Source of the DNA: Cupriavidus pauculus | Lineage (GTDB): Bacteria > Pseudomonadota > Gammaproteobacteria > Burkholderiales > Burkholderiaceae | DNA length: 64,000 nt | Reading direction: 5' to 3' | NCBI RefSeq assembly: GCF_003854935.1 | Contig: NZ_CP033969.1 | Location: forward strand, 1,054,001 to 1,118,000 | In this document: one piece after another, positions 4,922 through 37,532 of the stretch | Position numbering within the stretch: position 1 is the stretch's first letter | How the letters are laid out: each line of letters starts with the position of its first letter | Notes under the pieces: model-generated | Told to the model about the DNA's origin: nothing | The model's input: the letters and a program-made list of their open reading frames with translations, nothing else | The model's database searches: none | Made by a program: the position numbers and the translations under genes

Positions 4922-7030
4922 TCAACCTGCGGCGGCGCCGGGCAGGCGCACGCGCCGCGCCATGGCCTGCTCGGCCGCCAGCCGGCGCAGGCGGGCGACG
5001 GTGTCGTGGGCGGCGTCGATATGGCCGTCCGCATAGGTGCACTGCTCGGCCAGGAACTGTTCGAACAACGGGTCGGACGGCGTCAGCGGCATCCGGCGCG
5101 CCGGCGCCACGGCAGCGCTGACGCCGGTGCGGCCCGGCCGCACGGCCACTTCGGCCAGCCGGGTTTCCAGATCGGACAGCAGGGTCTGGATGGCCGGCCC
5201 CGGCAGCGCGTGGGGCTCGCCCGATTCGGCGCCCGCCCGGACCAGCCCGGCCAGCGACGCCATGCGCCGGGCCGTGGCATGCAGCGCCACGTGGGCGGCG
5301 CCCAACTGCGCGTCGAGATCGCCGGCGCACTGTGCCAGCGTCTCCTCGGCCCGCGTCGACGCCCGGCCGGCCGCCACGCGCAGCGCCTCCAGCCGCATCC
5401 GGGCCGGCGTGACGGTCCGCGCGCTGCTGATGGCGGCGCGCAGATAGACCGCGTTGACCGACAGCGCATCGAGCGTGTGCCGATAGGCGCGCGACAGCTC
5501 CGCGCGCGGCGCCAGCACGTAATAGCTCGCCAGCGCGATCAGGCAGCCAATGGCCGTATCCACGCCGCGCAGCGCCGCCACATGGCTGCTGCTGGACGCC
5601 GGCTCGCCGAGCCAGGAAAACAGGATGACCGCCGGCGTCAGGCAGAACGCAAAGCCGCCCGCGCTGCCGGCCAGCCGCAGCGCGTAGGCGGCGGCCAGCC
5701 CCAGCGCGCTGAGTCCCAGGGCCAGCACCGGGCTGGGATGGGCCAGCCCCACCGCGCACGCCAGCAGCGCGCCGGCCAGCGACCCGGCAAAGCGCTGGAA
5801 CGAGATCTGGCGCGTGGTCTGCAGGCGCGGACTCAACACCATGATCACGGTGACGGCGACCCAGTAGCCATGGTCGACCTGCAGCAACTGCGATGGCAGC
5901 AGGCTCAAGGCCCCGGCGAACGCCATGCGCAGCGCGTGCCGCGTGACCCGCGCATCGCGGGCGGCAATGTCGGCCAGCGCCTGACCGATCCGGTCGACGA
6001 CGGTGGCCAGGCCGGCCTTCGGCCATGCGAAGGTGTCGCGCCAGCGATCGAACGGCGGATGCTGGGCCAGCGCGGCCAGCGCCGACTGGTACGCCGGCGG
6101 GGCGCCGGCATTGGCACGCTGTCCGATCAGGCGGCGCACATCGCGGTCGAGCATGGCGCTCAGCGCGGGCAGATCCGGGGCATGGCGGGCCAGCGCCTGC
6201 CGTACCTGCTCCTGCGTATCGGCCAGGCACCGCGCGGCGTAGGCCAGCGGCAGCGCGTGGTTATCTCCGGCCCGCTCGCGCAGCTCGCCGGCGACGATCA
6301 GCAGCGCGAACATCGCGTCGGCCACGGCCAGCGAGTAGGCGTAGTGGAGCATGCCGACCGGATCGACAAGGCCACGCCGCGCCGCCACTGCGGCGCGCCC
6401 GGCTTCAATTCGCTCGCGGATTTCCTTCTTGTGCGGGGCCGTGTCGCCGGGCGTGGGCGCCGCCAGGCAATCGGCAAAGCGCTGCAGGGCGTCGTAGACC
6501 GCGATGATTTCGGGGCGCGGGCGCGCATCGCGCTGCGACGGCACCAGCACCAGGCACATCAGGCAGGCAAAGACGCCGCCGCGCAGGTAATCGACGGCCG
6601 CCGCGCCGGCATGGGCCAGCACGGCGGCATCGCCTACCGGCTGCAGGCAGGCGGCGATCAGCACCACATAGAGCAGCTTGAACCACAGCGCGGCGGCCGG
6701 GCCGCGCAATTCGGCCAGCCCGGCGATGACGCCCGCGGCGATCACCACGGCGAGCGCCGCAAGCGGCGAATGCGCCAGGCTGGCACCAATCAGGCTGGCC
6801 GCCGCCCCGCCGATGCCGACCGCGCCGAGGCCACGGATGCGGGAAGCCGCGGTGCCCTGGCGGTCGGCCAGGCAGGTCCAGATCGAAGCGGTGGCCGACC
6901 ACAGGTAACCCTGGTCGCCCGTGAGCCACCCGATGCCGGCCAGGGCGAAGAACGACAGCGCATAGACGACGCCGCGCTGGACAAACGCGGCGTCAAGCCA
7001 GAACGAGGGAAGGCGCAGGGGGCGGCGCAT
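4922..7030 (-). CDS. FUSC family inner-membrane protein (YccS/YhfK-like)
   Basis: Integral membrane protein of 702 residues with the fusaric-acid-resistance-like layout. There is an N-terminal cluster of about five to six membrane helices (residues about 15-160), a soluble region (about 165-375), a second cluster (about 380-510, with SFQRFAGSLAGALLA) and a C-terminal helical soluble tail. Proteins of this layout are proposed exporters of aromatic acids or other small molecules, but most, including YccS, have no proven substrate. No membrane-fusion or outer-membrane partner is adjacent, which argues against a classical FusABC efflux system. No clear Shine-Dalgarno precedes ATG 7030. Confidence 0.85.
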   Translation of the reverse strand: MRRPLRLPSFWLDAAFVQRGVVYALSFFALAGIGWLTGDQGYLWSATASIWTCLADRQGTAASRIRGLGAVGIGGAAASLIGASLAHSPLAALAVVIAAGVIAGLAELRGPAAALWFKLLYVVLIAACLQPVGDAAVLAHAGAAAVDYLRGGVFACLMCLVLVPSQRDARPRPEIIAVYDALQRFADCLAAPTPGDTAPHKKEIRERIEAGRAAVAARRGLVDPVGMLHYAYSLAVADAMFALLIVAGELRERAGDNHALPLAYAARCLADTQEQVRQALARHAPDLPALSAMLDRDVRRLIGQRANAGAPPAYQSALAALAQHPPFDRWRDTFAWPKAGLATVVDRIGQALADIAARDARVTRHALRMAFAGALSLLPSQLLQVDHGYWVAVTVIMVLSPRLQTTRQISFQRFAGSLAGALLACAVGLAHPSPVLALGLSALGLAAAYALRLAGSAGGFAFCLTPAVILFSWLGEPASSSSHVAALRGVDTAIGCLIALASYYVLAPRAELSRAYRHTLDALSVNAVYLRAAISSARTVTPARMRLEALRVAAGRASTRAEETLAQCAGDLDAQLGAAHVALHATARRMASLAGLVRAGAESGEPHALPGPAIQTLLSDLETRLAEVAVRPGRTGVSAAVAPARRMPLTPSDPLFEQFLAEQCTYADGHIDAAHDTVARLRRLAAEQAMARRVRLPGAAAG

Positions 7031-7252
7031 GGGCGGAAAGAAGCAGGATGTCTCAGGGTGAGTACCGACCCCACTCTACGGACACTATTGCTGCGTCGCA
7101 ACATTTCCATGGAATCACGGCGTTTTGCGCGTCGCTTGTGCTCGGTTGCACCAGTTTGGGGAAATGTGATCCACCCGGGTGCCGGAAGGCCATTCCGGCA
7201 GCTTTGCGACGGAATGATGGCGGGCAGCCAAGGGATTGCCCAAATTTTGGGT

Positions 7253-7284
7253 AAAAAAAAACCCGCGCAGGTTGTGCGCGGGTT
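7253..7284 (-). terminator. Intrinsic terminator, leftward
   Basis: A perfect 10-bp stem (7284-7275 with 7269-7260; AACCCGCGCA on the minus strand) with a CAACC loop, followed by a run of seven further T (7259-7253). It could end both the small RNA and read-through from spmAB. Confidence 0.9.
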
Positions 7285-7315
7285 GGAATCCACCGAGGTG
7301 GTGGAGGAGACAGAC
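7253..7315 (-). ncRNA. Candidate small regulatory RNA, about 60 nt
   Basis: A complete leftward transcription unit with no reading frame. A promoter at 7347-7319 would start RNA near 7311-7315. The RNA begins with a pyrimidine-rich TCTCCTCC stretch, forms a 5-bp hairpin CCACC/GGTGG (7304-7300 with 7294-7290) whose loop is ACCTC, and ends in an intrinsic terminator. Both TCTCCTCC and the ACCTC loop are complementary to Shine-Dalgarno sequences, a common layout of antisense-acting small RNAs. An attenuated leader of the FUSC gene, whose start is about 220 bases downstream, is the main alternative. The sequence shows the signals; transcription is inferred. Confidence 0.55.
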
Positions 7316-7318
7316 TTC

Positions 7319-7347
7319 ACTATACACGACTTGTTGCGACGCACCAA
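7319..7347 (-). promoter_or_regulatory. Sigma-70 promoter of the candidate small RNA
   Basis: -35 TTGGTG (7347-7342), a 17-base spacer, and -10 TATAGT (7324-7319), reading leftward. Its start site would fall 25-30 bases before the terminator hairpin. Confidence 0.6.
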
Positions 7348-7415
7348 GCTTCGGCCGTGAAAATGCCTGCAAGACCGCACAATCAGCGTTGTTGTCGTAC
7401 AACAGGCGGGGGGAT

Positions 7416-8660
7416 TCAGCGGAAGAGGTAGGCGATCCACACGGCCGCGGCCAGTCCGACCCCATCGGCGAACAGGGCACAGCCCAGGGCGTGGCGGGTA
7501 TTGCGCACGTTCACGCTGCCAAAATAGACAGCCAGCACATAGAAGGTGGTCTCGGTCGACCCCTGGATGATCGCGGCGAGCCGGCCCTGGAAGGAATCGA
7601 CGCCGTAGGTGGTCATGACGTCGACCATCAGGCCCCGGGCGCCGGCGCCGGACAGGATCTTCATCAGCCCGACCGGCAGGGCCGGGACGAAATCGGTATT
7701 GACGCCCAGCCACTGGAATCCGGCCGTCAGCGCCCGCATCGCCACGTCCATGCAGCCGCTGGCTCGGAATAATCCGATCGCTACCAGGATGGCGACCAGA
7801 TAGGGAATGATCTGCACCGCGACGCCGAAACCTTCCTTGGCGCCTTCGATGAAGGCGTCATAGACATTGACGCGCCGCAGGGCGCCGCAGACCAGGAACA
7901 ACATGATCAGCGACAGGATGAAGCCGCTGCCGGCCAGCGCCGCCATCTGGCTGACCTGGTCGGACGGGGCATGGCGCAGCCAGACGAACAGCCCGGCGAC
8001 GGCCGCGCCGGCCAGGGCGAAGGCGATCAGCACGGCAGGCTTGAACAGGTTCAGCCGCTGTACCCACGCGACGGCGAGCAGCCCGGCCAGGCAGGACGCG
8101 CCGGTGGCCAGCAGTGTCGGCAGGAAGATATCGGCCGCGTTGAATCCGACCAGCCCCTGCTTGACGGCCAGCGCCTGGCGGATGGCGATCACCGAGGTCG
8201 GAATCAGCGTCAGCCCGGCCGTGTTGAGCACGATGAACATGATCTGCGCGTTCGTCGCGGCGTCGGGCCGGCGGTTGAGGGTTTGCAGCTCGCGCATCGC
8301 GGTCAGGCCGAGCGGCGTGGCGGCGTTGTCCAGGCCAAGCATGTTGGCGGACACGTTCATCATCATCGCGCCTTGTGCCGGGTGGCCCTGGGGGACGCCC
8401 GGAAAGAAGTGCCGCAGCAGCGGGTTCATCAACCGGGCAAAGAGGTCGATCACGCCGGCGCGTTCGCCGATCCGCATGATGCCGATCCACAGGCTCATGA
8501 CGCCGGCCAGGCCCAGCGAAATCTCGAACGCGGTGCGCGCGCTGTCGAACAGGCTGGCGAGCAGGGCAGGGAAGACCGTGGCATCGCCGGCCACGAGCCG
8601 GACGCAGGCGGCCAGGAAAGACAATAGGAAGAATCCGAGCCAGACGAGGTTCAGTGCCAT
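7416..8660 (-). CDS. Fused SpmA-SpmB nucleoside-recognition (Gate domain) membrane protein
   Basis: Inner-membrane protein of 414 residues in which homologues of Bacillus SpmA and SpmB are fused into one chain. The N-terminal half has GAMMMNVSANMLGLDNAATPLG and LNTAGLTLIPTSVIAIR, the SpmA signature. The C-terminal half (from about residue 235) has IPYLVAILVAIGLFRASG and QGSTETTFYVLAVYFGSVNVRNTRHA, the SpmB signature. In non-sporulating proteobacteria such proteins are unrelated to spores and are presumed transporters or membrane scaffolds of unknown substrate. No Shine-Dalgarno is evident before ATG 8660. It is leftward and stands alone. Confidence 0.88.
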   Translation of the reverse strand: MALNLVWLGFFLLSFLAACVRLVAGDATVFPALLASLFDSARTAFEISLGLAGVMSLWIGIMRIGERAGVIDLFARLMNPLLRHFFPGVPQGHPAQGAMMMNVSANMLGLDNAATPLGLTAMRELQTLNRRPDAATNAQIMFIVLNTAGLTLIPTSVIAIRQALAVKQGLVGFNAADIFLPTLLATGASCLAGLLAVAWVQRLNLFKPAVLIAFALAGAAVAGLFVWLRHAPSDQVSQMAALAGSGFILSLIMLFLVCGALRRVNVYDAFIEGAKEGFGVAVQIIPYLVAILVAIGLFRASGCMDVAMRALTAGFQWLGVNTDFVPALPVGLMKILSGAGARGLMVDVMTTYGVDSFQGRLAAIIQGSTETTFYVLAVYFGSVNVRNTRHALGCALFADGVGLAAAVWIAYLFR

Positions 8661-9120: not shown

Positions 9121-9204
9121 CGGTCTGCTCCTTATTGATTCAGTGTCGGAAAGCTTATGACAGATGGCCCGGCAGGGGTCGTCTTCCCTTTTTTCAGAAA
9201 GCCC

Positions 9205-9233
9205 TTGCGCACCGCGTGGAACCCGTCTAATAT
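9205..9233 (+). promoter_or_regulatory. rrn promoter P1 (candidate)
   Basis: -35 TTGCGC (9205-9210), exactly 17 bases, -10 TAATAT (9228-9233), then a GC-rich discriminator (TCGCCCCC). A GC-rich discriminator is typical of stringently controlled stable-RNA promoters. Confidence 0.6.
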
Positions 9234-9357
9234 TCGCCCCCTCGCAACACGAACCGCGCTGCAAACGCAGCAGCGACAAGGGTTGCGGGGTCGATGGGGG
9301 TTGGAGTTGGCGAGGTTTGCCAGCGCCGGCCGGCGGAAAAAAGTTCTGCGAAACCTG

Positions 9358-9386
9358 TTGACGAAACGTTGAATGCTCTGCATAAT
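9358..9386 (+). promoter_or_regulatory. rrn promoter P2
   Basis: -35 TTGACG (9358-9363), 17 bases, -10 CATAAT (9381-9386). An A-rich stretch upstream (GGAAAAAAG, about 9335-9343) resembles an UP element. It is the better of the two matches ahead of 16S. Confidence 0.75.
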
Positions 9387-9447
9387 CTCGTTTCTCCGCT
9401 GCGACGAAATACGCAGCGACAGCGAACGGCGAAGCCGGCCCGCTGAA

Positions 9448-9458
9448 GTTCTTTAACA
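9448..9458 (+). promoter_or_regulatory. boxA antitermination site in the 16S leader
   Basis: GTTCTTTAACA matches the boxA consensus recognised by NusB-S10 on nascent rRNA. The identical sequence recurs before 23S at 11494-11504. Confidence 0.8.
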
Positions 9459-9460
9459 AC

Positions 9461-9488
9461 CAAACAACCGATAAGTGTGGGCGCTTGA
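9461..9488 (+). other. 16S RNase III processing stem, leader arm
   Basis: Complementary to 11205-11233 downstream of 16S: ACCGATAAGTGTGG pairs with CCACACTTATCGGT, and CGCTTG with CAAGCG. The pairing is near-perfect over about 27 positions, with one bulge and one wobble. It closes the whole 16S precursor. Confidence 0.75.
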
Positions 9489-9651
9489 TGGCGAACGCCG
9501 CCGGGGACTTCGGGTTCCTGGTGTTGCTTCAACAGTATCAAGTGCTCGCACAGTAAAACATGTTGGTTTGGCTCTTCGGAGCTAAGCCAGTCAGTTTTCT
9601 GAGAGTGAGCGACCGCTCGAAAGAGCGAGCCCTTCGGGGCACACAGAGATT

Positions 9652-11183
<1,532 letters not shown>

Positions 11184-11686: not shown

Positions 11687-14550
<2,864 letters not shown>

Positions 14551-33941: not shown

Positions 33942-33957
33942 TGGCGCAAACAGTGCT
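33942..33957 (+). promoter_or_regulatory. Candidate sigma-54 promoter of the cytochrome cd1-like gene
   Basis: TGGCGCAAACAGTGCT fits the -24/-12 consensus TGGCRCRNNNNTTGCW at every fixed position but one (G for the first T). GG (33943-33944) and GC (33955-33956) are separated by exactly 10 bases. It lies 115 bases before ATG 34072. No enhancer site or activator gene is recognised nearby. Confidence 0.6.
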
Positions 33958-34071
33958 TCGAATCCGTACCCACCGGCGCGCGCTTTCCATCCCCTGTGGG
34001 CGTCGCTGTCCGCGCGCAGACTTGTGTAGTCGCCACCAGCAGAGCGTGGCGTTCCCCACAAAAGGTAAGCG

Positions 34072-35628
34072 ATGCTAGGAAAAGTGCTAGGGACCGTTTT
34101 GGCGGCCGGCGTGTCGTCGGCCATATCGGCCATGCCCGCGGACGCCCTCAAGCGTGCGGACGCGCTGTACCAGGCCAACTGCGCGGTGTGTCACTCGGCC
34201 AGCCGGGGCGGCTATGTCGGGCCGGCCCTGCACAAGGACCGGCTGGTGCAGAGCGAAGCCGCGCTGCGCGGCACGATCATGACCGGCATTCCTGACACGC
34301 TGATGCCGCCGTTCCATTCGCGCATGGCGGACGAGGACATCCGGTTGGTCTCGCAGTACATCAAGACGCAGCCAGTGGGGCGCCCCGAATGGTCGATGCA
34401 GCAGATCCGCGACAGCCTGCAAGTGCTCGTCGATGAATCGACGCTGCCGTCGAAGCCCAGCTACCAGATTGGTTCGGTCTACGACCTGATGGTGGTGATG
34501 GCGCGCGGCCGCTACGGGCGCGGCACCGGCGACAACGCGAAGACCGTGTTCCTGGACGGCGCCACGAACAAGGTGGTTGGCGAGATCGCCACGCCGGTTG
34601 CGCCGCACATCATGGAATTCAGCCCGGTGGAGGCGCGCTGGGCGTGGCTCAAGAGCGACGACGGGCATGTCTACAAGATCGACCTGTACACGCTCAAGGT
34701 GGTGCGCAAGGTCAAGACGGGGCTGACCGGGCCCGGCATCGCCGTGTCGAACGACGGCAAATGGCTGGCCGCGAGTTCGTTCGTGCCGAATCTCGTGGTG
34801 ATCCTGAAGGCGGACACGCTGGAGCCCGTGAAGTACCTGCGCCTGGAGGGCAAGGACCCCGATGGCAAGTTCATCCAGTCGGCCGGCGGGCCGGTGATCG
34901 GGAGCCGGATCAACAACAGGTTCGCGCTGACGTTGCGTCAGGCGGGACAGATCTGGATCGTCGACCCCGACCGCGAAGGCATGCCGGTGACCAAGCTCGA
35001 AAAGGTCGGCCGGATGCTGCACGACACGTTCCTGACGCCCGATGGCCGGTACTCGATGGTGGCGTCTTACGGCGACAACAAGATCGTGGCCATCGACCTC
35101 AAGGAGAACAAGGTGGCGCGCGACATCCCTGCGGGCTGCCAGCCGCACGTGGGGTCCGGCGCGGTGACGCCGGTGGGCGGCCGGATGCTGGCGTTCGGCA
35201 CCAATATCGGCCAGTGCGACAAGGGCGACGTCGTCACGGTGTGGGACACGGCCGACTTCTCGGTGGTGAAGAACATCGCCGTGGCAGGCCCGACGGAGTC
35301 GCCGGCGGCGCATCCCGACGCGCCGTACGTGGCTGTCGACATCGTCAGCAAGGACAAGAAGGCGTCGCAGATCCAGCTGATCGACAAGCAGACGCTGGAG
35401 GTGGCGCGCACGCTCGATGCAGGCGGCCATGCGTTCTTCCCGGAATACACGCGTGACGGCAAGTACCTGTACGTCAGCGCTGGCTACTACGGCGACCGGC
35501 TGCGGATCTACGACAGCAAAACCCTGGCGCTGGTGGCCGAGCACAAGATGGAAAGCCCGGCCGGCATCTTCTCGCGCGCCCGTACCCAATGGATCTCGGT
35601 GGGTTTGCCGCCGACGCGCAAGCACTAA
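34072..35628 (+). CDS. Cytochrome cd1-like protein (NirS/NirN family): c-heme plus d1-heme domain
   Basis: Periplasmic protein of 518 residues. Seen: a probable signal peptide (MLGKVLGTVLAAGVSSAISA), a cytochrome c domain with CAVCH (C37, C40, H41) and likely axial M78 in TLMPPF, then an eight-bladed propeller-like d1 domain from about residue 130. H179 (VAPHIMEF) matches the proximal d1-heme ligand and H317 (RMLHDTF) matches one of the two active-site histidines of nitrite reductase. The other appears replaced in GSRINNRF (278-284). No d1 biosynthesis or other nir genes are adjacent, so nitrite reduction is doubtful; electron transfer or d1 handling (NirN-like) is possible. A small cytochrome c follows in the same operon. 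Confidence 0.8.
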   Translation: MLGKVLGTVLAAGVSSAISAMPADALKRADALYQANCAVCHSASRGGYVGPALHKDRLVQSEAALRGTIMTGIPDTLMPPFHSRMADEDIRLVSQYIKTQPVGRPEWSMQQIRDSLQVLVDESTLPSKPSYQIGSVYDLMVVMARGRYGRGTGDNAKTVFLDGATNKVVGEIATPVAPHIMEFSPVEARWAWLKSDDGHVYKIDLYTLKVVRKVKTGLTGPGIAVSNDGKWLAASSFVPNLVVILKADTLEPVKYLRLEGKDPDGKFIQSAGGPVIGSRINNRFALTLRQAGQIWIVDPDREGMPVTKLEKVGRMLHDTFLTPDGRYSMVASYGDNKIVAIDLKENKVARDIPAGCQPHVGSGAVTPVGGRMLAFGTNIGQCDKGDVVTVWDTADFSVVKNIAVAGPTESPAAHPDAPYVAVDIVSKDKKASQIQLIDKQTLEVARTLDAGGHAFFPEYTRDGKYLYVSAGYYGDRLRIYDSKTLALVAEHKMESPAGIFSRARTQWISVGLPPTRKH

Positions 35629-35639
35629 GGAGCCCGACC

Positions 35640-35993
35640 ATGACACGTTCTCATTGGAAACTGCCGGTCGCGGTGCTGACATGGCTTGGCGTGGCCGCGG
35701 CGGCCCAGGCGGCTGCGGGCGTTGAGGGGGGCAAGCCGGTGCAGAAGCCGGCCGACAAGCTGGCGGCCATCCTGCCGATGTGCGCCACCTGCCATGGTGT
35801 GGACGGCATCAGCAGCGTCGGCTTGTATCCGAACCTGGCCGGGCAGAAGGCCGAATACCTGGCCAAGCAGCTGCGCGACTTCAAGGCCGGCCGGCGCGAC
35901 GATGCCGTGATGCGGCCGATGGCGGAGCCACTCGACGACGCCGCCATCGACGCCTTGTCCCGCCACTTCGGCGCGATGCGCGCCGCGCCGTAG
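35640..35993 (+). CDS. Small class I cytochrome c
   Basis: Periplasmic monoheme cytochrome of 117 residues. Seen: signal peptide (MTRSHWKLPVAVLTWLGVAAAAQAA), heme motif CATCHG, YPNLAGQKAEYLAKQL and the likely methionine ligand in DAVMRPMAEPL, as in the cytochrome c4/c553 group. I chose ATG 35640 because AAGGAG lies upstream and the signal peptide starts there. It begins 11 bases after the cd1-like gene and is probably its electron donor or acceptor. It converges on the MocR gene with a gap of three bases. Confidence 0.88.
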   Translation: MTRSHWKLPVAVLTWLGVAAAAQAAAGVEGGKPVQKPADKLAAILPMCATCHGVDGISSVGLYPNLAGQKAEYLAKQLRDFKAGRRDDAVMRPMAEPLDDAAIDALSRHFGAMRAAP

Positions 35994-35996
35994 CGA

Positions 35997-37532
35997 TCAG
36001 GCGTCGAGGCCGGCCGGTGCGTCTGCATCGGCCGCCCGCTGCCGGCATGCGCCGACGGCCAGCTTGAGCCGGACCAGCGCCTGGCGGATCTGGTCCACGT
36101 TCTGCGACGCATAGCCGAGGAGCAGGATCCGTTGGGCCGCGGCCGGGATGAAGCCGCAGGCGGCCTCGTGCAGCGGATACAGCCGGATGCCGTGCGCCAG
36201 TGCGCGATCCGCGACGCTTGCGGCGGTCGGCCCATCGGACGGCAGATGGAGCGCGACGTGCATGCCCGTGTCCGCGCCGCTGATGTGGCATCGGCCGTCC
36301 CAGATGTCATGCAGCCCGGCGAGCAGGGCGTCGCGCTGCTCGCGGTAGCGGCGGCGCAGGCGGTACAGATGCCGGCTGTAGTCGCCATATTCGATCAGCC
36401 GCGCCAGCACGGCCTGCTCGAGCCATGGGCAGCCGTGGTTGAGCAGCGCCTTGCGGCGCGCGATGGCGTCGGTCAGCCAGGGCGGGCAGGCCATGAAGCC
36501 GAGCCGCAGGCCCGGCCCGAGCACCTTTGAGAACGATCCGACGTAGACCACCCGGGAAGGATCCATCGCCATCAGCGGCGGCGGCGGCGCGCCTTCGTAG
36601 GCGAAGTCGCCGTCGTAGTCGTCCTCGATGACGCAGGCGCCGGACTGGGCGGCCCAGCGCAGCAGGGCGCGGCGCCGGTCCATCGACATTGTGTAGCCCA
36701 GCGGGTACTGGTGCGAAGGCGTGGTGTAGACCAGCCGAACAGGCCCGGACGGCAGCGCATGGGCGCAGAGCCCGTCCGCATCGACCGGTACGCCGATCGG
36801 CGTCGCGTGGGCAAGCTGGGGCAGGTTGCAGAAGCCGGCATAGCCCGGCGATTCGACCACGACGCGGTCGCCATGGTGGACCAGCTGCGCGGCAAGCAGG
36901 TGCAGGGCTTCCTGCACGCCGGAGACGATCAGGATCTGCGTCGGCTCGACGGCCAGCGCGCGCGTGGCGGCCAGGTAGTCGGCAATCTGCATGCGCAGAC
37001 CCCAGAGGCCTTCCGCCGGCGGGTATTCGCTGATGGCCTGGCGCATCTGCCGCAGCAGCGGGTTCGACAGCATGGCCCAGCGGCGGGCCGGGAACGCATC
37101 GGGCGCCGGACGGCCAAGCTTGAAATCGTGGATCACCGGCAGGCGGGGCGGCGAGGTATGAACGCCGGGCGGGCACACCGCTGCGCGGGCGGGGGATTCC
37201 ATGGGCGGCGGCACGGCCTCGGCCGGCATGGCCGATGGTGGCACCGGTGCCGGTGGCGCCGAGGCACGCGGTATGGCATCGGCCACATAGAAGCCCCGGC
37301 CCGGCTCGCCGCGCAGCAGCCCGGCATCGGTCAGGCCCTCGTAGGCGCCGACCACGGTGTTGCGGGACACCCGCAGCGTGGCGACCAGGCACGTGATCGA
37401 TGGCAGGCGGTCGCCGGTCTGCAGGCGCCCGGTCACGATCATGCGCTCGACCTGCCGCATGATCTGTCGCTTGTAGGGCTCCGGCCCCCCGCGCACGATC
37501 TCGATCGGAAGGGTGAAGGCATGGCGCTGCAT
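35997..37532 (-). CDS. MocR/PdxR-type transcriptional regulator (GntR HTH plus aminotransferase domain)
   Basis: Regulator of 511 residues. Seen: a GntR-type winged helix (residues about 10-80: GDRLPSI...LRVSRNTVVGAYEGL, ending RGEPGRGFYVAD), a Pro/Ala-rich linker (about 85-135), and a fold-type I aminotransferase domain with VSGVQEALHLLA, IEDDYDGDF and VYVGSFSKVLGPGLRLG, whose lysine should bind pyridoxal phosphate. Such proteins control pyridoxal, GABA or taurine genes, usually divergent from their target. Here the divergent neighbour is recQ, about 180 bases away, so the target is not obvious. ATG 37532 gives the family start. Confidence 0.9.
   Translation of the reverse strand: MQRHAFTLPIEIVRGGPEPYKRQIMRQVERMIVTGRLQTGDRLPSITCLVATLRVSRNTVVGAYEGLTDAGLLRGEPGRGFYVADAIPRASAPPAPVPPSAMPAEAVPPPMESPARAAVCPPGVHTSPPRLPVIHDFKLGRPAPDAFPARRWAMLSNPLLRQMRQAISEYPPAEGLWGLRMQIADYLAATRALAVEPTQILIVSGVQEALHLLAAQLVHHGDRVVVESPGYAGFCNLPQLAHATPIGVPVDADGLCAHALPSGPVRLVYTTPSHQYPLGYTMSMDRRRALLRWAAQSGACVIEDDYDGDFAYEGAPPPPLMAMDPSRVVYVGSFSKVLGPGLRLGFMACPPWLTDAIARRKALLNHGCPWLEQAVLARLIEYGDYSRHLYRLRRRYREQRDALLAGLHDIWDGRCHISGADTGMHVALHLPSDGPTAASVADRALAHGIRLYPLHEAACGFIPAAAQRILLLGYASQNVDQIRQALVRLKLAVGACRQRAADADAPAGLDA

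Follow-up and report, generated by a model that had tools for sequence, protein, structure and literature searches.

A cytochrome cd1-type protein of Cupriavidus pauculus in a clade apart from NirS, NirN and NirF

INTRODUCTION

According to one account, heme d1 occurs in no protein but cytochrome cd1 nitrite reductase (PMC6054029), and another describes it as the cofactor of NirS and reports that NirF works with NirC (PMC13168839). In NirS, His182 is given as the fifth ligand, His327 and His369 as the residues that hold nitrite, and Arg156, Arg198 and Arg372 as contacts of the d1 side chains (PMC7278500). Structures are available for NirS (PDB 1nir, 1aof), NirN (PDB 6rtd/6rte) and NirF (PDB 6tv2). 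Here we describe a further protein of this kind, X, which is encoded together with a small cytochrome c, C, in a 64-kb window of Cupriavidus pauculus (positions 1054001-1118000 of contig C2 in a 6.18-Mb genome). The initial annotation of this window presented X as an orphan d1-heme protein that seemed to have lost one active-site histidine of nitrite reductase, lay behind a near-consensus sigma-54 promoter and might be part of a redox system serving some purpose besides denitrification. Our comparison suggests that X is probably a periplasmic d1-heme oxidoreductase of its own clade, working with C under a MocR-type regulator.

RESULTS AND DISCUSSION

X forms a clade of its own

The product of X matches Cytochrom_D1 (PF02239) with 186 bits against a cut-off of 25.5, and it carries a Cytochrome_CBB3 match and a CAVCH motif, in agreement with the 518-residue reading frame, c-heme and d1-type domain of the initial annotation. 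The N-terminus is signal-like on inspection of the sequence. The architecture is that of a c-heme domain followed by a d1 propeller, with a NirS-like fold, and the closest relatives are Cupriavidus proteins.

We aligned 52 sequences (16 core X, two diverged X, a more distant copy named X2, 19 NirS, seven NirN and seven NirF) and made a tree after removing seven near-copies; this was a quick search without bootstrap, and the branch to X2 is long. X falls in a clade (branch value 99) of 16 rows, namely 13 core sequences, the two diverged ones and X2, which excludes NirS and NirN. The 15 NirS rows form a single clade (100) and the seven NirN rows form their own (99). On this tree X makes up a fourth clade, next to NirS, NirN and NirF. 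The architecture is a known one, of which X is a new variant at the family level; it is not a categorically new system.

Like NirS, X has a c-heme domain, a d1 propeller and three pocket histidines, but identity between the two is only about 25-28% and X lies outside the NirS clade. Residues were matched to P. aeruginosa NirS by counting along the chain in the HMMER alignment. X H179, H317 and H359 occupy the columns of H182, H327 and H369, and all three histidines are present in 16/16 X and 19/19 NirS. The initial annotation had correctly named H179 as proximal and H317 as distal. The other distal histidine, however, is not lost: the alignment with NirS, NirN and NirF that had been suggested as a check restores both, an outcome that the initial annotation had named as grounds against its proposal, and the site where a replacement was supposed (R279) holds histidine in only 9 of the 19 NirS, with leucine in nine and threonine in one. 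The motif around that site, GSRINNRF, occupies residues 277-284 and not 278-284 as first given. The H327 column contains histidine in 16/16 X, aspartate in 7/7 NirN and tyrosine in 7/7 NirF and in X2. Judged from the alignment, X retains the complete histidine set of NirS, unlike NirN and NirF.

The d1 contacts differ more. R156 is kept as R145, but R198 is replaced by D196 and R372 by S362 in 16/16 X. Aspartate in the D196 column is specific to X, all 33 NirS, NirN and NirF rows having arginine, while serine in the R372 column is common to X and NirN. X also differs from NirS in C356, which sits three residues before the distal H359 in a column where the NirS, NirN and NirF rows have K, E, R or G. 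There is a second cysteine at C382, and a C356/C382 disulfide or a role for these residues at the d1 site is possible.

NirF resembles X in its d1-type propeller and in being paired with a small cytochrome c, C corresponding in this respect to NirC. In contrast with NirF, X contains a c-heme domain itself and keeps the two distal histidines.

X lies beside d1-synthesis genes in genomes without NirS

There is no PF02239 match in the window besides X, and to this extent the description of X as an orphan holds. The genome, however, contains nirS, nirF, nirDL, a nirG-like gene, nirJ and nirN at about 1252.7-1260.9 kb of the same contig, approximately 163 kb from X, and X is therefore not in a d1-free organism. 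No match to nirE was obtained; the single open reading frame (ORF) tried gave no family. The initial annotation had named a nir cluster elsewhere, with X grouping among true NirS, as grounds against its proposal; the cluster exists but X does not group with NirS.

When genome contigs were scanned, 29 loci came up, of which 15 have a near full-length X (73-91% identity): seven in the Cupriavidus group, where one carries the label Ralstonia sp., three in Achromobacter, three in Alcaligenes and one each in Thauera and Pseudothauera. NirJ is above cut-off in all 15 of these genomes, in 6/6 further X genomes described below and in the genome of the window. NirS and X occur together in 6/7 Cupriavidus-group genomes, in the genome of the window and in Thauera and Pseudothauera, so that X does not, as a general rule, simply take the place of NirS. 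In the three Achromobacter and three Alcaligenes genomes, the only PF02239 matches are at NirF level and X level, with no NirS and no NirN, and NirK is above cut-off in 6/6.

We then took 200 genomes of the Achromobacter/Alcaligenes family and searched them with PF02239 at E 1e-20. There are matches in 19: ten genomes have NirF and X only and nine have NirS, and X is present in none of these nine (0/9). Eight of the nine have two extra matches whose scores and frame lengths agree with NirF and NirN, and the ninth (G954) has NirS alone. Six of the ten genomes with NirF and X are new relative to the contig scan, with NirJ in 6/6 and NirK in 6/6. This brings the X genomes without NirS to 13, with NirJ in 13/13, NirK in 12/13 and no NirN in 12/13; the exception in both cases is Cupriavidus sp. 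U2, which has NirN and whose NirK is below cut-off.

X is at most 7 kb from NirF in all 12 genomes of the Achromobacter/Alcaligenes family that lack NirS. In Alcaligenes (L128) the order is MocR-type gene (minus strand), X, C and a gene for a cysG N-domain, continuing on the opposite strand with nirJ, nirH-like, nirG-like, nirDL, nirF, a nirC-like cytochrome gene and nirE. Protein matches give the same order in Achromobacter (L126). The Alcaligenes cluster thus has nirF and nirC-like genes in addition to X and C, which separates the pair from NirF and NirC. X adjoins nirE-C-F-DL-G-H-J in Alcaligenes and Achromobacter where NirS and NirN were not found, and this makes it the only visible d1 client there. 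Because relatives of X adjoin d1-synthesis genes where no NirS was found, heme d1 probably has a second use besides nitrite reductase.

The same genomes bear on whether X is a d1-maturation protein, an analogue of NirN that finishes or carries d1 for an unrecognised client. NirN is the best sequence match of X among solved chains (175 bits), has the same c-heme and d1 propeller and shares the serine equivalent to S362, and the absence of NirN from 12 of the 13 genomes would fit such a substitute. Those 12 genomes, however, have no other PF02239 client to mature, and Cupriavidus carriers hold both NirN and X. X also has both distal histidines, one of them where 7/7 NirN have aspartate, together with R145 and D196, and it forms a separate clade. 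We regard a NirN-like role as improbable.

Cupriavidus sp. U2 (G151) has matches to NirF, NirN and X but none to NirS. Its nir cluster is without nirS: positions 13639 and 13646 of the locus (L158) abut and correspond to the flanks at 10495 and 12169 in the relative G099 (L042). The genes matching nirF, nirDL, nirJ and nirN are retained with 94-96% identity and X is also retained. Slightly beyond the nirS gap, a stretch of about 0.9 kb (13857-14781 of L158) does not match the relative.

Within Cupriavidus alone the link between X and d1 is weak: in a sample of 15 genomes of the genus, X is present in 4/9 with NirS versus 0/6 others (chance 0.09). It is the Achromobacter/Alcaligenes family that provides the strong evidence; we do not treat the association figure of 2e-12 as a probability, since it takes no account of kinship. 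An X profile at E 1e-60 found 4/399 genomes of the order and 2/398 of a phylum sample, the latter both of the genus of the window, in draws that are thin and include no Achromobacter or Alcaligenes carrier of X. In a survey of the Thauera family PF02239 matched 127/199 genomes; the best-scoring matches listed stop above the scores expected of X and have no bearing on X there. A search of plasmids gave 36 records, all below 60% identity (27.7-30.0% in the 15 matches listed), and these are probably kin of NirN or NirS.

The partner genes and the region upstream of X

The features of the locus are collected in Table 1. C lies directly after X in 15/15 loci, consistent with the pairing of the two in the initial annotation, and we propose that it is the electron partner of X. 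Its start was set at 35640; an in-frame start further upstream, at 35589, would overlap X. The linked MocR-type gene was absent from the initial annotation. A MocR match adjoins X in 14/14 other loci (L054 lay outside this test), downstream and convergent in Cupriavidus and upstream and divergent in the other loci, and the start codon was picked by homologous N-terminus. The Alcaligenes protein exceeds the PdxR cut-off. Neither the small cytochrome nor the regulator is part of the likeness to NirS; X comes with its own. On the other side X is flanked by a divergent MMPL/RND transporter gene.

Table 1. Coordinates of X and associated features in the window
Feature	Position	Strand	Basis
X, cytochrome cd1-type protein, 518 aa, probably secreted	34072-35628	+	ORF, domain match, alignment, tree
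X c-heme domain	C37-x2-C40-H41 (CAVCH), Met78	+	sequence
X d1 propeller	H179 proximal, H317 and H359 distal; signature D196, C356, S362	+	alignment
C, monoheme cytochrome c, 117 residues, CATCH, immediately 3' of X	35640-35993	+	ORF, domain match, conservation with X
MocR-type regulator (GntR and pyridoxal phosphate aminotransferase domains), convergent to X and C	35997-37532	-	domain matches, 14/14 loci
Upstream element, first half, CCGTACCCAC	33964-33973	+	conservation; proposed MocR operator
Upstream element, second half, CATCCC, 24 bp further on	33988-33993	+	spacing kept in 8/8 Cupriavidus
-24/-12 site of the initial annotation, TGGCGCAAACAGTGCT	33942-33957	+	9/12 consensus positions; unsupported as promoter

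There is a shared element upstream of X. Its first half, usually CCGTANCCAT, lies approximately 100 bp from the start of X, and a CCGTACCCAT-like element with at most one mismatch is present in 8/8 Cupriavidus. At the same stringency the first half is found at -89 to -104 in 3/3 Achromobacter, 2/3 Alcaligenes and Thauera, which makes 14/16 upstream regions; it is missing in L059 and L063. The chance per region is 0.036 by single-base shuffling, for a pattern that was picked from the same sequences. We infer that the element may be the operator of the MocR-type regulator.

The sigma-54 promoter of the initial annotation is not supported. The -24/-12 site is present, but it is one of 54 sites in the window, both strands counted, that score at least 9/12. 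A search for TGGCGCAAACAGTGCT with three mismatches found only itself, and at least one match appeared in 50/100 shuffles. No site of at least 7/12 occurs at 110-150 bp upstream of X in the seven Cupriavidus relatives (0/7); four of the seven have a different 9-10/12 match at -53. A sigma-54 start for X is thus possible but unproven.

The nirS gene in the genome of the window has a perfect FNR-type box (TTGACTGCCATCAA). No such box is present within 330 bp of X, at one mismatch or fewer, in the eight Cupriavidus loci, while upstream of X there is a perfect box in 3/3 Alcaligenes and a one-mismatch box in 3/3 Achromobacter. The boxes are relevant to the explanation that X is in effect a divergent NirS, kept as a backup that converts nitrite to NO when NirS or NirK is not expressed. 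Such an enzyme would keep the three pocket histidines and NirS-like fold, might be near nirS as in Thauera and Pseudothauera, and could be controlled from the box found in Alcaligenes. The absence of X from the nine NirS genomes of the Achromobacter/Alcaligenes family is also what would be expected of two proteins with the same job. However, X lies outside the NirS clade and has fixed changes at d1-binding positions, Cupriavidus X does not have the FNR-type box of nirS, and 21 of the 22 X genomes examined already have NirS or NirK (the exception is Cupriavidus sp. U2). We consider a backup enzyme a possible but rather unlikely explanation. As NirS or NirK is already there, a distinct condition, substrate or direction for X is likely.

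Diverged and decaying copies of X

Two diverged X proteins, in G510 (L137/L159) and G246 (L138/L160), have 48-51% identity to X and keep the histidine set. Neither has a C or MocR match in the 15-16 kb fetched. NirJ is present in G246. G246 also has two different NirS at 5882-7477 and 11840-13435 of L161, with 59% and 71% identity to the NirS encoded in the genome of the window and about 4.4 kb between them. In Pseudothauera (L059) a second diverged pair, X2 (approximately 41% identity, with tyrosine for H317) and its cytochrome C2, lies right behind X and C at 9124-11117, and there is a second MocR-like gene at 12063-13478.

X has been reduced to its first 43-56 codons at two loci of C. pauculus (L067, 7001-7838; L070, 7001-7916), a deletion remnant that adjoins a frame-broken MocR gene, as if X and its putative regulator decay together. 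These remnants argue against an oxidative role, in which X would serve heterotrophic nitrification by oxidising hydroxylamine, NO or a similar nitrogen compound, with C receiving the electrons. One of the two belongs to strain UM1, reported as a heterotrophic nitrifier (PMC4279423), and within the loci, which alone were searched, X is only a remnant. An oxidative role would suit Alcaligenes faecalis, an X carrier studied as a heterotrophic nitrifier with an uncertain source of NO, and reported to have nirK among the lowest-expressed quarter of its genes (PMC11160463); the MocR-type regulator may likewise suggest an amine or amino-acid signal. On balance we give this role a small chance.

Proposed function of X

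We return to X as a d1-heme oxidoreductase. Electrons would be exchanged between C and the c-heme of X (His41/Met78) and from there reach the d1 heme held by H179, where H317 and H359 would have the part in substrate handling that H327 and H369 have in NirS. The cofactor would be d1 or dihydro-heme d1, 12 of the 13 NirS-less genomes showing no NirN. From the residues present, nitrite reduction is the simplest chemistry for the pocket, and our leading guess is that X reduces nitrite or a related small nitrogen oxide. It would be used under conditions signalled by the MocR-type regulator and, at least in Cupriavidus, not through an FNR-type site. Achromobacter and Alcaligenes would maintain the d1 pathway for X, while in most Cupriavidus carriers and Thauera d1 would be shared between X and NirS.

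Several observations weigh against this proposal. The replacement of R198 and R372 means that d1 may sit differently in X or be a d1 variant. In Thauera and Pseudothauera only about 4-5 kb separate X and nirS, and this, like the FNR-type boxes of Alcaligenes X, would fit a role in denitrification. The 97%-complete genome G510, which has NirS and a diverged X, gave no NirF-level match and no NirJ at E 1e-100. Additionally, the genomes counted are related, and the counts are not independent.

The two arginine changes and the G510 copy without NirJ could also mean that d1 binding has been lost, which would make X a relic or else a sensor that is simply a c-type cytochrome. The ratio of nonsynonymous to synonymous substitution (dN/dS) of X, however, is approximately 0.1, a strong conservation that indicates purifying selection. 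The proximal and distal histidines are fixed in 16/16 X, and X is linked to d1 genes in genomes without NirS. Loss of d1 binding is very unlikely on these grounds. The earlier idea of a d1 redox system with a role beyond denitrification is supported by the d1-gene neighbours in NirS-less genomes, although the reasons first given for it were mostly wrong.

Implications

Among the titles and abstract openings listed in the literature search, whose reach did not extend to supplements and most subscription journals, none describes the X clade. The genome of A. faecalis Mc250 is listed with nirECFDLGHJES in one report (PMC7643998), and another states that no NirS was found in A. faecalis ATCC 8750 (PMC11160463). 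If the 'nirS' of Mc250 is X, both accounts may be right, and we offer this as a possible explanation of the conflict. Counts of nirS based on annotation may, in the same way, be miscounting the X family.

The picture of heme d1 as restricted to NirS is at odds with genomes that have genes for d1 synthesis and a d1-type protein from a different clade but no match to NirS. We see an even chance that X, standing outside the NirS family, represents a second use of d1 in copper-type denitrifiers (Alcaligenes, Achromobacter) with a reaction that would be new among d1 proteins. The X genomes without NirS provide a clean test system.
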